A program made the translations under genes and the position numbers. Positions 18,278 to 24,536 of a stretch of DNA of 34,453 nucleotides are shown one piece after another. Numbering within the stretch: the first letter of the stretch is position 1; each line of letters opens with the position of its first letter. This stretch comes from a virus: IMG/VR virus record IMGVR_UViG_3300021373_000217, positions 1-34,453 of that record, one strand, 5' to 3'. The notes beneath the pieces are model-generated. The model was not told where the DNA came from, made no database searches, and was given only the letters and a program-made list of their open reading frames with translations.

Positions 18278-19585
18278 TCATTCCCCTATCGCCACGGCCT
18301 GACGGCCTCGGTAGTCGTTGGTTTCATAGTTCATAACGTTGTAATCCATATCAGCCACCGCTTGCTGGCGGTATACCTCGTTGCTTTTGTTGACCAGCTT
18401 CGGGAACAGTTCCGTAAACCCCCAGACCATAGCATCAACCCGGTCGGGTGATCCATCGCCTTCGTAACCGGACGCTGTGATCTGACACATCTGGCTTTCA
18501 AGCTGCGGAAACGTGCCGACGTGGTGGATGCGGCCAAGAGCGTACAGGGCGCTGATAGGTTCTGCTCTGACGTGCTTTCCTCGTGTCGCGTGTACCTCAA
18601 TGATGTTGATGCCGGGGCGGACGCTGTTGAGGACATGGCGGCACATATCGCCGCCCTGATTCTTCTCAATCACGATCCCGTCAGCATCATATCGGTCGTA
18701 CATAGCGATGGCCCGCCGCGCCCAGCGTTCAGGTGCGCCCTTGGTCGTGCCATCTTCCAGCATATAGCCGTGGCCTGATTGGCTAGATGCCACTGCTACA
18801 ATACCGTGTTCGTCGCTGTGCGCCTCGCTAGACACCGCCGGGTCAACCGCGATCAGGATACGAGACAGATCGTTAGGCAACTCAGCTTCACGCCCTTCGT
18901 TGATGTCGCGCATATTCCAGATCGCGCCAACCGCTTGCGGTTCGTAATCGCCTAGCCAAATATGGCTGTAACGGTCAGGCCGCAGACGCCTATCAAGCGC
19001 CCGCTCTGCTTCCAATTCTTTTGGAAACCACGGGTTGCTATCGTAATTGACCTGCACAACTGCCGCGCCTTCTGGAACGTCATCGCCGCGCAGGAAGTTA
19101 TCAACCGCATCCATACGGTTGCGCGGGTTCCAGCTAAAATACATCTGCGAACCGGGTGCGCGAATGGTCGGTCGCAATAGCTCCAAAGACTTAGCTGATA
19201 ACGTTTGCGCTTCCTCAACCCACGCAATGCGGAAACCTTCCAACGATTTTATCGTCTCCGCCGTGTGATCCTGCATACCCATAAATATAACCAAACCGCC
19301 TTGCGGCGTCTCAATGCGGTCGTGCATGACCCGGAAACGGTTGGCAACGCCTAGTGCGTTGATCTTGTCAGCAATCAACCTGTAAGCCGATTCACGCAGG
19401 GATTTCTGCACCTCACGAATACAAACGGCGCGGATAGTCGGGTCTTCAATCATCCTGTCCACAATGCGTTCAGCAAAATGGTGAGACTTGCCAGACCCAC
19501 GGCCACCGTGTGCGCCGAGATAGCGCAAATCCGGCTGAAACAAAGGCCGAAATGCTTTAGGCGTCGGGATCGTTAATTTTGCCAT
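18278..19585 (-). CDS. terL: Terminase large subunit (435 aa)
   Basis: Packaging motor ATPase and nuclease. The ATPase domain has Walker A (GGRGSGKS, residues 27-34), Walker B with catalytic glutamate (IAWVEEA, about 120-126) and a coupling motif (SWNPRNR, 151-157). The RNase-H-like nuclease has its three acidic sites at D228 (ILIAVDPA), E287 (GIVIEKNQ) and D364 (DRVDAMVWG). I choose the ATG at 19583-19585, two codons inside a TTG-initiated frame. It overlaps the small subunit by 29 bp, so translation is probably coupled. Confidence 0.95.
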   Translation of the reverse strand: MAKLTIPTPKAFRPLFQPDLRYLGAHGGRGSGKSHHFAERIVDRMIEDPTIRAVCIREVQKSLRESAYRLIADKINALGVANRFRVMHDRIETPQGGLVIFMGMQDHTAETIKSLEGFRIAWVEEAQTLSAKSLELLRPTIRAPGSQMYFSWNPRNRMDAVDNFLRGDDVPEGAAVVQVNYDSNPWFPKELEAERALDRRLRPDRYSHIWLGDYEPQAVGAIWNMRDINEGREAELPNDLSRILIAVDPAVSSEAHSDEHGIVAVASSQSGHGYMLEDGTTKGAPERWARRAIAMYDRYDADGIVIEKNQGGDMCRHVLNSVRPGINIIEVHATRGKHVRAEPISALYALGRIHHVGTFPQLESQMCQITASGYEGDGSPDRVDAMVWGFTELFPKLVNKSNEVYRQQAVADMDYNVMNYETNDYRGRQAVAIGE

Positions 19586-19928
19586 CAACAAAAACCCGTT
19601 CGATTGTTTCTATCTTGCCGGTATGTTCCTGCACGTTTGTCTCTTTCCAGCCCATCTGCGTCTTGGCCCAGAAGATAGCCGCCGACGTGTCGCCGTTCAT
19701 CACCTTGTTAAACAGCGTCCCGCCGACCTTGGCGTTCGCCAGTATCTTACTCTCACGGATTTCCTTCTTGAAATGCTTGGCAAGCGTGTCCGCATCGATG
19801 CCGTCGCGGATCACCATAGCAATCTGCTCTTGCGGTATGCCTACGGCCACCATCTGCCCAACCTGCTTGCGCTCGTCGTCCGTTGGCTTGAACGGTGGAC
19901 GGCCACTGCGGCCCTTTTTGCCTGTCAT
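19557..19928 (-). CDS. terS: Terminase small subunit (123 aa)
   Basis: DNA-recognition subunit of the packaging motor. The basic N-terminus (GKKGRSGRPPFKPTDDERKQV) leads into a helix-turn-helix (about 25-55: VAVGIPQEQIAMVIRDGIDADTLAKHF), followed by the family-typical segment KVGGTLFNKVMNGDTSAAIFWAKTQMGW. The gene overlaps terL and is first in the late operon, 40 bp from the divergent promoter region. The ATPase and nuclease motifs are absent, as expected. Confidence 0.93.
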   Translation of the reverse strand: MTGKKGRSGRPPFKPTDDERKQVGQMVAVGIPQEQIAMVIRDGIDADTLAKHFKKEIRESKILANAKVGGTLFNKVMNGDTSAAIFWAKTQMGWKETNVQEHTGKIETIERVFVDGKINDPDA

Positions 19929-20015: not shown

Positions 20016-20246
20016 ATGACATACAACGGTTGGACAAATTACGAAACATGGCGCGTCAACCTCGAAATTTTTAACGGCACCAATCTCTGGGAAGATGTCA
20101 CCGCCGAGTTCTGCCAAGATTTAGTCGAACAGCATATTGAGCAAGAATCCAAAGGGCTTGCTTTTGGGTATGCCATGTCATTCCTTGAAAATGTTAACTG
20201 GCATGAAATTGCTGACAGCCTCAAGCGGGATTATGAGGATGCTTAG
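20016..20246 (+). CDS. Conserved small phage protein, NGWTNYETWRVNLEIF family (76 aa)
   Basis: The N-terminus MTYNGWTNYETWRVNLEIFNG is a strong family signature found in very many phages and some plasmids (a DUF7249-type protein, by recollection). Function is unknown. The protein is acidic and helical, with no Cys pair or membrane segment. AAAGGA lies eight bases before the ATG. It is alone on its strand between the late and modification operons, under the TGTTTACA promoter, and its stop overlaps the stop of the converging dioxygenase gene by four bases, with no terminator between them. Confidence 0.85.
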   Translation: MTYNGWTNYETWRVNLEIFNGTNLWEDVTAEFCQDLVEQHIEQESKGLAFGYAMSFLENVNWHEIADSLKRDYEDA

Positions 20247-21043
20247 AAATAATTCTTAAAGGCTTTCAAAGGGTAAAACACCAAGCTGTTTCTATAGCCG
20301 TTTTCTTTGATAGGAACTATCGGGGTTACACCGTGAATATTTTTCCACGCAGGATAGACTAAGATAGAATTGTTACAGCTATCCACAGTCGCGCCGTAGT
20401 CTGGAACAGTGGTGTTTCCGCCTTTTGCGTTCAATCGCTTCGTTATAATCACATTGACGCAGCCTTTTAGGTTTGCCATATCCCGATGATATTGCGCTGC
20501 AATATTGAAATTTGATATGGAACTTGTGAATAGGTTTCCAAACCGCCATTTTTTAGGAGCGTTTTCTTCTATGGCTTGTTTTTGCTTCAGATAAATATCT
20601 GGCGTGACCTGTTCGATTAGTTTTTCTGCCTCCAAGCAAGAAAGCATCATTGCTTTAATAAAATTTTTTGCTGTCTCAACTTGATGGACGCTCGATATTG
20701 TTGGGTAATTTCGACGCATATGTGGTTTCGGAGCCACAGCCCCCAAAATCGTGCTGTATTGCGTGACTAAATTTACACCGGCACGGGATCTTTCTAGTTT
20801 GTCTTTTTTGCTTCCCTGTGGTCCACGGCTCATTTCCTGTTTTGGCACTCTATCTGATAAAAATTCAGCATTAGCGATGTTGATATATTTTTGCAGTTTC
20901 TCTGGCAAATGATTCATATAGAAACCTACTGTTTCACCTTGGTCATAAAACACAGTATTTTCAGTGATGTTGGGTTCTATTTCCAAACATTTGTCGCCTA
21001 TCTTTATGTTGTGATTAATTTTTTCAAGATCGACGCGTTTCAT
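20243..21043 (-). CDS. TET/JBP-family 2-oxoglutarate/Fe(II) dioxygenase, DNA base hydroxylase (266 aa)
   Basis: Predicted to oxidise the methyl group of 5-methylcytosine (TET) or thymine (JBP) in DNA, using Fe(II), O2 and 2-oxoglutarate. The double-stranded beta-helix motifs are in order: iron ligands in YHRDMANLKG (H186, D188), a strand with a Gly pair and Pro (GGNTTVPDYG, 208-217), NNSILVYPAW (224-233), the distal iron ligand in IHGVTPI (H237), and the 2-oxoglutarate-binding Arg in YRNSLVFYPL (R251). The NS(I/L)LxY...HGVTPI...YRxS(L/I)VxY pattern is the hallmark of phage TET proteins. The N-terminal 150 residues are helical and basic. It is last in a three-gene ATGA-coupled operon after a glycosyltransferase and a ParB-like gene. 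G+C is by eye only about 40%, clearly below its neighbours. Whether the substrate is C or T cannot be read from sequence. Confidence 0.88.
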   Translation of the reverse strand: MKRVDLEKINHNIKIGDKCLEIEPNITENTVFYDQGETVGFYMNHLPEKLQKYINIANAEFLSDRVPKQEMSRGPQGSKKDKLERSRAGVNLVTQYSTILGAVAPKPHMRRNYPTISSVHQVETAKNFIKAMMLSCLEAEKLIEQVTPDIYLKQKQAIEENAPKKWRFGNLFTSSISNFNIAAQYHRDMANLKGCVNVIITKRLNAKGGNTTVPDYGATVDSCNNSILVYPAWKNIHGVTPIVPIKENGYRNSLVFYPLKAFKNYF

Positions 21044-21768
21044 TTGACTGTTTTTCCATGATCTGCTGCAAATTTTTTAATATCTATTTTTGCGTCTACT
21101 CTGCCAGTTTTTGTTTTTATCAATTTTGCATATGGATGCCAATCTTCCACAATTTTAACAGCCCATTCAGTGTCTCGTTTATTAGAATAATGCTCATGTA
21201 GCCCTCCTTTGTTACTGCCTATCACTGGAGAACTAAAAAAATATCTGTTAAACCTTATGGTTCCGTGACCGTTCTTTATCGTTTGCAGCAAAAAATCTCT
21301 ATCTTCTTTTGTATTATCTTTATAGCGCCAAGATATTTCAGAAACTTTCAACATTGTGCAAACTTCTGAAAATTTGCGATTTACAGAGAACGAAGTTTTT
21401 TCGTGCCAAGCATTTTGCCTGTAATTTATTCCAACAAGTTCAAATGGCATATTTTTTACTTTTTCAAATAAGTTATGCCATATTTTTGCGTTAGCTGTGC
21501 GATTTTTGCCGTCATAAAAACCGAAACCTGTGACATCGTCGTCGCAAACTATTATCCAATCGTTGCCGTTTGCTACCGCCCAATCAAGTATAAAATTACG
21601 AACATACGATATGCCTTTGTCATTTTCACCTATGTCTACAATATTCGGCACTTTGTATGACGAGATTTCTTGTGGTTCAATAAAATGAAAAGTTTTTATA
21701 TTAGCTTGTTCAAATAATTTGTAAGTTTTTGTTTCCGGCCTTCCTTTTGATGGTATGCAGCAAATCAT
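21040..21768 (-). CDS. TET-associated glycosyltransferase (TAGT), DNA base glucosylation-type enzyme (242 aa)
   Basis: Predicted to attach a sugar from a nucleotide donor to the hydroxymethyl base made by the neighbouring dioxygenase. The GT-A fold motifs are an N-terminal CIPSKGRPETKTYKLFEQA, a KGISYVRNFILDWA helix (51-64), and the metal-binding DDD in WIIVCDDDVTGF (D76-D78). A later acidic ENTKEDRDF-type segment (DNTKEDRDFLLQ, about 151-162) is a candidate catalytic region. This arrangement, adjacent to a TET/JBP gene, is the TAGT pattern described for phage DNA modification. The gene overlaps both neighbours by four bases. It is strikingly A+T rich (about one third G+C), pointing to acquisition from another genome. 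The donor sugar and the bond position are unknown. Confidence 0.85.
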   Translation of the reverse strand: MICCIPSKGRPETKTYKLFEQANIKTFHFIEPQEISSYKVPNIVDIGENDKGISYVRNFILDWAVANGNDWIIVCDDDVTGFGFYDGKNRTANAKIWHNLFEKVKNMPFELVGINYRQNAWHEKTSFSVNRKFSEVCTMLKVSEISWRYKDNTKEDRDFLLQTIKNGHGTIRFNRYFFSSPVIGSNKGGLHEHYSNKRDTEWAVKIVEDWHPYAKLIKTKTGRVDAKIDIKKFAADHGKTVK

Positions 21769-22379
21769 AGCTTTTCCTTTTCTTCTCTGAGAAAATTCAT
21801 AAACATATATCCCACATATGCCTCTTTATCGCGCCACCATTTAACTAATTCAGCCGCTTCTTCGTAATGCTCTGCTTCAAATTCAATCTGGATAGCTTTT
21901 TTTACATTTTCCTGCATTTCATCCAAGGTGTTTTCTATTTCATCTTCATCATCCAAAATGGAATAATCTATTTCGTCAAAATTAAGCTGAGATGGATGAA
22001 AACCGACAAGTTCTAAATCAAAAGCCTGATCTGTCAAATCCTCCATTTCGACCTTGAGCAAATCCATATCCCACCCGGCATTCTGGGGCAGTTGATTATC
22101 CGCCAGCACATAGGCTTGCTTCTGGGCCTTCGTCCAGCCGGTCGCCGTCATGGTTGGCACTTCCTCAATGCCCAGCTTCCGCGCTGCCATAACGCGGCCA
22201 TGCCCTGCTATAATTTCACCGTCTTCGTCAATCAGCACCGGGGTCGTCCATCCCCATTCTTTGATAGACGCTGCAAGCTGCGCCACCTGCTCGTCGGAGT
22301 GCGTCCGTGCATTTCGCGCATACGGGATCAGATCATCCACTTTGCGCCGTTCGATTTTATCCGCTGCCCAATCTTTCAT
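21765..22379 (-). CDS. ParB-like nuclease-fold protein linked to DNA modification genes (204 aa)
   Basis: Residues 14-115 form the phage ParB-like domain: VDDLIPYARNARTHSDEQVAQLAASI, then a PVLIDEDGEIIAGHGR box (GHGR at 59-62), and KAQKQAYVLADNQLPQNAGWD. In many phages this domain precedes a DNA methyltransferase in the same protein. Here it is followed instead by an acidic linker (about 124-148) and a helical C-terminus (IQIEFEAEHYEEAAELVKWW, then YVGYMFMNFLREEKEKL). I start it at the ATG at 22377-22379, with GGAA upstream; an ATG 12 bases earlier is possible, while a longer frame would translate the palindromic gap. A role in targeting or regulating the modification enzymes is inferred. The N-terminal half is G+C richer than the C-terminal part. 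Confidence 0.82.
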   Translation of the reverse strand: MKDWAADKIERRKVDDLIPYARNARTHSDEQVAQLAASIKEWGWTTPVLIDEDGEIIAGHGRVMAARKLGIEEVPTMTATGWTKAQKQAYVLADNQLPQNAGWDMDLLKVEMEDLTDQAFDLELVGFHPSQLNFDEIDYSILDDEDEIENTLDEMQENVKKAIQIEFEAEHYEEAAELVKWWRDKEAYVGYMFMNFLREEKEKL

Positions 22380-22550
22380 TTTGCTTTCCATGTTTGTGTA
22401 AAAACCCCTAGCCCGCAGTTGTACCCCCAAACCCCCACCCTTAAGGGTGGGGGGGTTTTTGGGGTACACGTTTCTGCGGTTTTTTGCCCCTCTTACCCCA
22501 ATTACCCTTTTAGTACCCTAGGGGTTTTTGGGGTAGCACGCAAAAGTTGT
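22380..22550. other. Non-coding 171-bp gap with C/G runs and TACCCC-type repeats
   Basis: The gap between the primase-helicase gene and the ParB-like gene contains four copies of a TACCCC / GGGGTA core in both orientations, two copies of GGGGTTTTTGGGGTA (22453-22467 nearby and 22521-22536), and strand-biased runs of C and G up to seven long. It contains the large palindrome listed separately. No gene is visible. Possible uses are replication origin, binding site for the ParB-like or primase protein, or a transcription stop ahead of the modification genes. Confidence 0.55.
22421..22467. repeat. Long near-perfect palindrome in G/C-run sequence
   Basis: The core is CCCCCACCCTT followed immediately by AAGGGTGGGGG (22432-22453), a perfect 22-base palindrome with TTAA at its centre. 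Outside the core, TACCCCC with AAA pairs with TTTTT and GGGGTA, with two extra G and two extra T as bulges. The plus strand ends in G7 then T5, which could act as a terminator for plus-strand RNA; the G-runs could also form a quadruplex. Confidence 0.7.
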
Positions 22551-24536
22551 TCAAGCATTGCGTGAAACAACCATTGCGGATGCCCAAACCTTATCAATTA
22601 TGACCCAGCCGTCATGTTGCTTTTCGATCATATTTGCCAAAAGCAACGCCCCGATAAGTTTATTATCGTATGACGGATTGAGCATATTTTTGATAGTTCG
22701 ATCGGCCATATCGTCGCTTTCAAGTTTGCGGATCAATGCCGCACGGGTCAGATATGGTTGGCCGTCAATATCCTCCGCGCCGGATGTCCACCAAGCATTC
22801 TCAAACAGCTTTTGATGTTTGACGATTGGGCTGTCTTTCTTTGCTTTGACAGGCTCTTGTCCGGCCACTAATACCGCGCTGGTCACTTGGTCTCCGTCCT
22901 CATCCATCCAGCCAGTAATAGGCACCGACTGCAACTCAGCAAATACCGGCACAGCTTCCTCGGCATCCTTGGATTTACGCTGTACGATCTCAATCGTATC
23001 GCCGGGGATAACCGATATTTCAATATCCAACGCCCCGCGCCATGCGCTACTGCCCCGCGCACGGTGCTGTGCCTCGTTTGATACGCCGGTATGATGTACC
23101 AATACCACGCTGCAACCGAACTCATGTATCAGCGCCCCACAGGCATCCAGCATCGATTTAGCATCCTGTGCGCTGTTTTCGTCGCCATCCAGAAACCTGT
23201 GCAGCGTATCAACCACGATGATTTCCGGCACACTAGGCAGCGACCGAATGGCATCCACCGTTTTCTGGTAGCCCTGCGGGGTGTTTAAATCCAGACCATG
23301 CCGTGAAAGCCACATATCCAGCCCGCTGACGGCCTTGTGCTGCTTCCATGCGGCTACCCTACCCCGAAGGCCGTGATGGCCCTCACCGGCCAGATATACC
23401 ACCGTACCGTGGCGAACCTTATTTCCGAACCATTCGCTGACCGCGCCCTTGCTGGCAACCGATAGCACCATATCCAGCACCATAAAGGTCTTGCCACCGC
23501 CAGAGGGGCCGTGAACCATTATGAGTGCTTGACTTTGCAGCCATCGCTTGATTTGCCAGCGGATCGGGTCCGGCTGTTCCGAAAAACTATCGGCAGGGAC
23601 CAGCCAATCGTCTGCGGGCGGAAAGAGCAACCCGGCCAGATCACCGCCTGATTGATGATAATCGTTCGCATCGCCTTCGATCGGCGGCATTACAATGCGC
23701 CCGCCGTGCTTGGCGCTTGCTTCGTCAGCCTTGTTACGGCCAACACCGGATGCGTCATTGTCTGCCACTATTACGATTTCCTGCGTCTGGCCGTGTATAT
23801 CGCGCAACTGGCCGACTATTTCCGGCAGGTTATTCGCGCTGTAGGCAATAACGCAAGGCCGACCAGATATCTCGTGGATAGTCGCGGCTGTAGCGTATCC
23901 CTCGGCTACAAATATCGGCCCCGGCGTTACCTCGCCCAGCGTCCATGAGCAGGATTTGGTTGTGCCGCCGGGATGGTAACGCTTTTCATCGTCGGAGATA
24001 TATTGCAGGGAAGCCAGATCGCCGTCTGCGGCGTACAACGGCACAATTAGCCGACCGTCGCCGGTTAGCCGTGCGCCGTGAGGATTGATGCCCTTGCGCT
24101 TTAGATAGGGATGATCGGGGCTTGCAGCGATTGCATCACGCCAGATTGTCTCGACAGTGCTGGCTGCAACTTCCGCCTTGCGCTGCCGTGCAAGATCGCG
24201 TTCTGCCTTGGCTTCCGATTGCCGCCGTAAAATTGCCATATTTTCAGCGGGTGACAGATCGCGGCCAATTTCGGCCTTAAACACCGCATCGATCTGATCG
24301 CGCCAGCACCCAAAACGACCGGCCACCGGCTCATCTGGAAACGCAATATACCAGCCTGAATCGTCGCGCTTGCGGCCTTTGGTACTAAAGCGGTGAAGCT
24401 GGCCGTCTATTTTGATATCACGCGGCGGTTCAATCCCAGCGGATCGCATGGCGTCAGCCAGTTGCAACTCAGGTGGATCAACTTGTTTGCTGGACGGGAC
24501 AAACGGCCCGCCGAATATGTCTTTGATGTCAGCCAT
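22551..24536 (-). CDS. Primase-helicase: TOPRIM domain fused to RepA/RecA-like ATPase (661 aa)
   Basis: The N-terminal half is a TraC/plasmid-type primase region with a TOPRIM core: E212 in IFVAEGYATA and D259/D261 in IVIVADNDASG. The C-terminal half is a RepA-type hexameric helicase/ATPase: Walker A GPSGGGKT (343-350), Walker B EIIVVDTLHR (D443), and VVLVHHTG (H481-H482), followed by an RARGSSAWRG motif. The last 70 residues look like a winged helix (LTRAALIRKLESDDMADRTIKNML). Together these would unwind and prime the phage origin. No zinc finger is evident at the N-terminus, unlike T7 gp4. GAGGAA precedes the ATG. It is the only replication initiator-like gene here, and no polymerase accompanies it. 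Confidence 0.9.
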   Translation of the reverse strand: MADIKDIFGGPFVPSSKQVDPPELQLADAMRSAGIEPPRDIKIDGQLHRFSTKGRKRDDSGWYIAFPDEPVAGRFGCWRDQIDAVFKAEIGRDLSPAENMAILRRQSEAKAERDLARQRKAEVAASTVETIWRDAIAASPDHPYLKRKGINPHGARLTGDGRLIVPLYAADGDLASLQYISDDEKRYHPGGTTKSCSWTLGEVTPGPIFVAEGYATAATIHEISGRPCVIAYSANNLPEIVGQLRDIHGQTQEIVIVADNDASGVGRNKADEASAKHGGRIVMPPIEGDANDYHQSGGDLAGLLFPPADDWLVPADSFSEQPDPIRWQIKRWLQSQALIMVHGPSGGGKTFMVLDMVLSVASKGAVSEWFGNKVRHGTVVYLAGEGHHGLRGRVAAWKQHKAVSGLDMWLSRHGLDLNTPQGYQKTVDAIRSLPSVPEIIVVDTLHRFLDGDENSAQDAKSMLDACGALIHEFGCSVVLVHHTGVSNEAQHRARGSSAWRGALDIEISVIPGDTIEIVQRKSKDAEEAVPVFAELQSVPITGWMDEDGDQVTSAVLVAGQEPVKAKKDSPIVKHQKLFENAWWTSGAEDIDGQPYLTRAALIRKLESDDMADRTIKNMLNPSYDNKLIGALLLANMIEKQHDGWVIIDKVWASAMVVSRNA

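Follow-up and report, generated by a model that had tools for sequence, protein, structure and literature searches.

We describe here a compact cassette of three genes encoding a ParB-like protein, a TET-associated glycosyltransferase (TAGT) and a TET/JBP-type 2-oxoglutarate/Fe(II) dioxygenase (TET), which lies in the IMG/VR virus record IMGVR_UViG_3300021373_000217. The window, meaning the whole stretch of DNA analysed, is the 34,453-base record itself, whose ends are not shown to be complete. All three open reading frames (ORFs) are located on the minus strand and follow one another in that order, with the ParB-like gene at 21765–22379 (204 amino acids, aa), the TAGT gene at 21040–21768 (242 aa) and the TET gene at 20243–21043 (266 aa), and they overlap by ATGA at both junctions (21765–21768 and 21040–21043). 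The original prediction had proposed this operon, the family of each product and the main residues of the two enzymes, and in these respects it proved correct, each protein exceeding its curated Pfam cut-off. Moreover, more than 100 viral contigs show this order of genes, far beyond what chance would give.

The TET protein matches Tet_JBP (PF12851) with an E value of 2e-10 and 40.6 bits, against a cut-off of 34.9. This is its sole Pfam match above cut-off, and the J-DNA-binding domain of kinetoplastid JBP1 was not found in the protein. It carries the metal triad H186-x-D188...H237 and R251 for 2-oxoglutarate, and these residues, together with N191 and Y257, do not vary among 64 aligned relatives. 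Relatives of TET were collected from IMG/VR by a single-protein search and an alignment search. The AlphaFold model (mean pLDDT 92.3) found its best matches in the Protein Data Bank among TET2, CcTet, NgTet1 and CMD1 (E 5e-12 to 7e-8), with FTO and AlkB weaker; profile and fold thus both place the enzyme in TET/JBP and rule out an AlkB-like origin. In a HMMER alignment with TET2, N191 corresponds to N1387 and Y257 to Y1902, and L259 stands in place of H1904; the equivalents of all three residues are kept in four actinophage TETs. NCBIfam returned no assignment for either TET or TAGT. In PHROG (phrog_6059) and several RefSeq records the protein is labelled queuine tRNA-ribosyltransferase or DpdA-like, and this applies to the window gene and to those of L001 (19980–20765) and Mycobacterium phage Donny (L170, 813–1691). 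We rejected this label as a probably propagated misannotation, because the labelled proteins match Tet_JBP in Pfam.

TAGT matches PF20691 (E 6e-15, 56.1 bits against a cut-off of 27.5) and has a DxD-type DDD motif at residues 76–78; R10, D77, D78, G113, D156 and G189 are invariant in 41 relatives, which were fetched separately from those of TET. Its AlphaFold model is confident (pLDDT 95.7), but the best fold matches, among GT-A and nucleotidyltransferase structures, are weak (E 7e-5 or worse, TM about 0.45–0.54), and TAGT is therefore assigned chiefly from its Pfam family and DDD motif. A sequence search of solved structures for kinship of TAGT yielded nothing significant.

The ParB-like protein has an N-terminal ParB domain (PF02195; E 2e-6, 28.3 bits against a cut-off of 26.3) and a C-terminal tail, encoded at 21765–21980 on the minus strand, with the conserved pattern DYSxLDD...VKKAIQIEFEPEHYEEA.ELVKFWR...AYVG. 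ORF finders extend the gene to a GTG at 22469, and the ATG at 22379, preceded by GGAAAG, agrees better with the relatives.

The ParB tail and the exchangeable slot

A ParB-like gene occurs just upstream of TET in 142 loci, which share the plan ParB, a variable slot, TET and then, usually, the small and large terminase genes (terS and terL). Of the 95 loci with room for it, 79 encode the large subunit no more than 3 kb downstream, the median distance being 347 bp. The N-terminal ParB domains fall into at least two types (GHGR and GNMR) with a mean identity of 29% between types, whereas the tail of about 65 residues is 51% identical between them. When the tail alone was used as query, a TET gene was found downstream in all 73 contigs with room among the best 80 of 450 confirmed matches, the other seven contigs ending within 2 kb; weaker relatives of the tail lacking TET may exist among the remaining matches. 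On this comparison the tail belongs to the cassette and goes with TET. It also provides a searchable marker, in that anything encoded between tail and TET becomes a candidate for DNA modification, including slot proteins with no Pfam match. The cyanophage ParB proteins of L001 (18641–19279) and of MED4-184 are annotated as DNA methylase; the ParB domain alone was detected in them.

The slot is occupied by TAGT in half of the 142 loci (71), an FkbM-type methyltransferase in 19, a P-loop kinase alone in 13, and an amino acid:DNA transferase (ADDT), with or without a kinase and a class II amidotransferase, in another 19. Nine loci carry long ORFs with no family assignment, some of them glycosyltransferase-like by eye, one has a single short ORF and ten have an empty slot. 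TAGT, FkbM, ADDT (PF18724) and GATase-like occupants were named by Pfam. The share of TAGT is inflated because one seed search used TAGT, and in the 73 loci fetched with the tail it occupies 21, alongside 21 with FkbM and 23 with ADDT combinations. Three of the TAGT loci carry extra genes that resemble sugar-nucleotide supply; in L123 (3823–5276), and also in L124 and L128, genes resembling a nucleotidyltransferase and a phosphatase or kinase precede TAGT and may constitute a dedicated supply. Candidates for new tailoring enzymes are encoded in the slots of L093 (5120–6001), L086 (4037–4963) and L034 (9083–9985), whose products are each about 300 aa long and reach no Pfam cut-off.

Occupants of the slot have been exchanged repeatedly and precisely. 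Mapped onto a tree of 127 TET rows, the slot type must change at least 40 times, where the minimum possible is six. Three pairs of loci illustrate the exchange in their DNA, where the identities of the two flanks are 93% and 91% for L007 (kinase) against L010 (TAGT), 96% and 91% for L019 (TAGT) against L025 (FkbM), and 89% on both sides for L014 (kinase) against L139 (TAGT). The similarity between L007 and L010 ends 9 bp beyond the ParB reading frame and restarts 12 bp ahead of the TET start, and in general the breaks fall about 3–12 bp from the flanking reading frames, beside flanks up to 96% identical. Several exchangeable genes can thus occupy this putative hypermodification locus, the glycosyltransferase being one of them, and the presence of near-identical TETs beside unrelated partners suggests that the slot enzymes all work on a common product of TET. 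Such natural, near-isogenic pairs, with the same TET and a different slot enzyme, are well suited to testing the tailoring enzymes.

Cassette boundaries and neighbouring genes in the window

In the window, the region 20243–22049 has a GC content of 0.367, compared with 0.512 (sd 0.027) in 1.8-kb windows elsewhere, and the shift falls within the ParB gene, from 0.567 before position 22050 to 0.351 after it. A DNA match to phage MW202613, which carries a ParB-methyltransferase, ends at 22039, and matches to the nearest TET relatives start at 22022–22334 and stop at 20248–20264, so that the similarity begins in the ParB gene and lasts until TET ends. There seems, then, to be a recombination boundary inside ParB near 22040, and the GC shift and the breaks in DNA similarity together suggest that the resident phage retained its ParB N-domain and acquired the tail together with TAGT and TET in one piece, the mobile low-GC cassette covering 20243–22040 on the minus strand.

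Downstream of the cassette lie a small convergent gene on the plus strand (20016–20246) matching DUF7249, a probable terS (19557–19928, minus strand), which was assigned from its position beside terL and from gene order in relatives, and terL (18278–19591, minus strand) with profile matches to Terminase_3 and Terminase_6C. Upstream, a primase-helicase gene (22551–24536, minus strand) matches Toprim_3 and AAA_25. Between it and the ParB gene, at 22420–22535, the sequence TACCCCNAAANCCCC occurs in three copies, where 0.02 would be expected, arranged in inverted and direct order to form palindromes. It is a candidate operator; the repeat is absent from the other loci fetched and, being present in the window phage only, was rejected as a general ParB site. 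No ParA partner was found among the window genes scanned, some small ORFs falling outside the scan. Much of the rest of the window encodes head, tail and lysis functions. A DNA-level comparison with named phages gave no useful close match, and a scan for hosts turned up relatives in metagenome-assembled genomes, but these numbered just four, not enough to assign a host.

A proposed pathway and its substrate

We consider that the window carries a cassette for post-replicative DNA hypermodification, in which oxidation by TET is followed by decoration by the slot enzyme, and we give this reading a probability of about 0.7. TET would hydroxylate the 5-methyl group of a pyrimidine in the polymerised phage DNA and the slot enzyme would act on the hydroxymethyl group so formed, the product of TAGT in the window being a glycosylated 5-hydroxymethylpyrimidine. 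The conserved tail of ParB probably allows this protein to recruit the enzymes to phage DNA or to link them to the adjoining packaging genes. With the tail and TET constant across phages and recombination replacing the slot enzyme, phages could alter the final decoration without altering the oxidation step. The pathway originally proposed, oxidation and then glycosylation after replication, agrees with the profiles and folds and with the absence of a thymidylate-synthase-type hydroxymethylase (PF00303) from all 29 records searched, the window included, but the glycosyltransferase turns out to be only one of several occupants of the slot. From the families involved, the modified base may also protect against host restriction.

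Two other explanations bear on parts of this scheme. TET might be a counter-defence eraser or regulator of methyl marks on host or phage DNA, with the slot enzymes acting on proteins, surface glycans or RNA. Sugars and small molecules are indeed the usual substrates of FkbM-type methyltransferases and glycosyltransferases, and an empty slot in ten of the 142 loci would fit such a role, but an amino acid:DNA transferase family (PF18724) occupies the same position, the swaps beside near-identical TETs are those expected if slot enzymes use the TET product, and TAGT is itself defined by its link to TET, which it accompanies in Donny and in Nonlabens phage P12024L; we regard an eraser as very improbable. 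It is rather easier to imagine, though still improbable, that the ParB-like protein is a mere neighbour, a common phage gene of the terminase side with no role in modification, since ParB-like genes are widespread in phages and mostly unaccompanied by a match to TET (ParB occurs in 390 records and TET in 86). Against this stand the tracking of TET by the tail in 73 of 73 contigs drawn from the best 80 of 450 matches, the retention of the tail across two very different N-domains, the fusion of the same ParB domain to a DNA methyltransferase at the equivalent place in other phages, and the presence of ParB beside TET in actinophages at a TET identity of about 27%.

The base that is oxidised is a separate matter, on which the evidence leans towards thymine without settling it. 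No C5-cytosine methyltransferase (PF00145) is encoded in the window, a possibly incomplete record, nor in 35 of the 39 related records that reach 30 kb (the other four hold just one full-length match), 68 of 75 phage records searched or five named phage genomes searched. From its absence in the window and most relatives, the best guess is that thymine is converted to 5-hydroxymethyluracil (5hmU) and on to a base-J-like glycoside, a sequence-based proposal that we find somewhat probable; the hint of 5-methylcytosine (5mC) in the original prediction is, for the same reason, unsupported. Rhodococcus phage Tonitrus and Gordonia phage CloverMinnie carry kinases and ADDT related to those found in the slots, and the characterised kinase and ADDT pathway described by Lee and colleagues in 2018 reportedly works on 5hmU. 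The authors who described the gene set of Tonitrus saw in it a possible system for hypermodifying thymidine (PMC11955845). A protein of about 200 aa in L070 (7144–7752), and similar ones in three more records, match the N-terminal third of PF00145 alone and their function is doubtful.

The competing view is that the substrate is 5mC, produced by a host methyltransferase or by a phage enzyme encoded beyond the window, and that the product is glycosyl-5-hydroxymethylcytosine, as in metagenomic phage TET systems. Several observations weigh on its side and against ours. Seven of the 75 records do encode a C5-methyltransferase, full-length or nearly so in three (G021, G052 and G053), and most of the relatives' records are uncultivated contigs of unestablished completeness. 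The enzyme belongs to the same family as the characterised phage TETs, which, as reported by Burke and colleagues in 2021, are said to act on 5mC with a C5-methyltransferase partner from the phage, and TET2, CcTet and NgTet1, at the top of the fold search, all act on 5mC. N191 matches N1387 of TET2, which, like Y1902, is a base contact; N1387 is known to contact 5mC, as H1904 does. The His of TET2 is replaced by Leu in the window TET (L259), a change that would favour thymine but is suggestive at most, because fungal CcTET has lost a conventional 5mC contact and still oxidises 5mC (PMC12730594). P12024L had been considered as an example of TET paired with a C5-methyltransferase; it was set aside and does not help the case for 5mC, because the adjoining methyltransferase is of the N6/N4 type. 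Given the scarcity of C5-methyltransferases noted above and the kinase and ADDT occupants of the relatives' slots, we consider a 5mC substrate unlikely. A further weakness in our own scheme is that the role of ParB is deduced solely from linkage.

The fullest form of the thymine proposal is a packaging-linked, plug-in locus, in which TET would make 5hmU from thymine, the ParB tail would tether TET and the exchangeable slot would yield a base-J-like glycoside or an O-methylated, phosphorylated or amino-acid-adduct base, the enzymes being swapped as phages meet differing host defences. As a whole this picture is tentative, and we would sooner bet against all of its parts than for them. Were it true, a single oxidation step would provide a common chemical handle on which the final DNA decoration is replaceable, and this would account for the fast diversification of hypermodified bases.

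Comparison with known systems

The enzyme families and the concept of TET-initiated hypermodification are already known. Three features appear to be new in the searchable literature, namely the tail of ParB, the precision with which the slot is exchanged and the setting free of C5-methyltransferase, though they may overlap with gene-neighbourhood figures in key earlier studies. In the metagenomic clusters of Burke and colleagues, the phage TET reportedly feeds glycosyltransferases and other tailoring enzymes, and a co-occurring C5-methyltransferase supplies the 5mC; no such enzyme accompanies TET in the window or most of its relatives.

The actinophages Donny and Acadian (Mycobacterium), CloverMinnie and Tonitrus resemble the window in grouping ParB-like, TET, tailoring and terminase genes at their left ends, but the tailoring genes follow TET instead of lying between ParB and TET. 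Their TETs are about 26–33% identical to that of the window and the ParB tail is not recognisable; the ParB C-termini of L169 and L170 show a pattern like that of the tail (E 0.04 at best) and may be distant relatives. In Donny the order is ParB, TET, TAGT, PIG-L deacetylase, Ploopntkinase3 and terminase, where gene 3, annotated as hypothetical, matches TAGT (6.5e-38) and gene 5, annotated as adenylate kinase, matches Ploopntkinase3 (3e-61) (L170, 1707–3588). The deacetylase of gene 4, beside TAGT and the kinase, suggests a base bearing an amino sugar. As cultured phages, these are convenient laboratory systems for nucleoside analysis. P12024L (L175, 4116–6381) carries a TET of a different lineage, followed by TAGT and the N6/N4 methyltransferase, with no adjoining ParB.

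The cyanophages MED4-117, MED4-184 and P-HS2 share with the window a ParB with the same tail, the slot, a TET that is 47% identical, a gene of terS size and terL, but their slot holds an FkbM-type methyltransferase and not TAGT. The MED4-117 genome, like the window, is without a C5-methyltransferase. Phages MW202613 and MW202867 have the same ParB N-domain (68–69% identical) upstream of terS and terL. In them an N6/N4 methyltransferase is joined to this domain, at the place taken in the window by the tail, TAGT and TET.

Phage PhiW-14 employs a 5hmU hypermodification of the thymidylate-synthase type. Such a system is also found in phages M6 and ViI (PMC9599517). In common with these systems, tailoring enzymes of the kinase and amino-acid-transferase type are present in the slots of some relatives, whereas the 29 records searched all lack a thymidylate-synthase homologue and TET would form the hydroxymethyl group after replication. 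In the base J pathway of kinetoplastids, polymerised DNA is hydroxylated by JBP1/2 and then glycosylated by JGT. A TET/JBP hydroxylase and a glycosyltransferase are common to that pathway and the window, where TET is without the J-DNA-binding domain and the substrate is a predicted one; should the prediction be right, the cassette would be a phage counterpart of base J.

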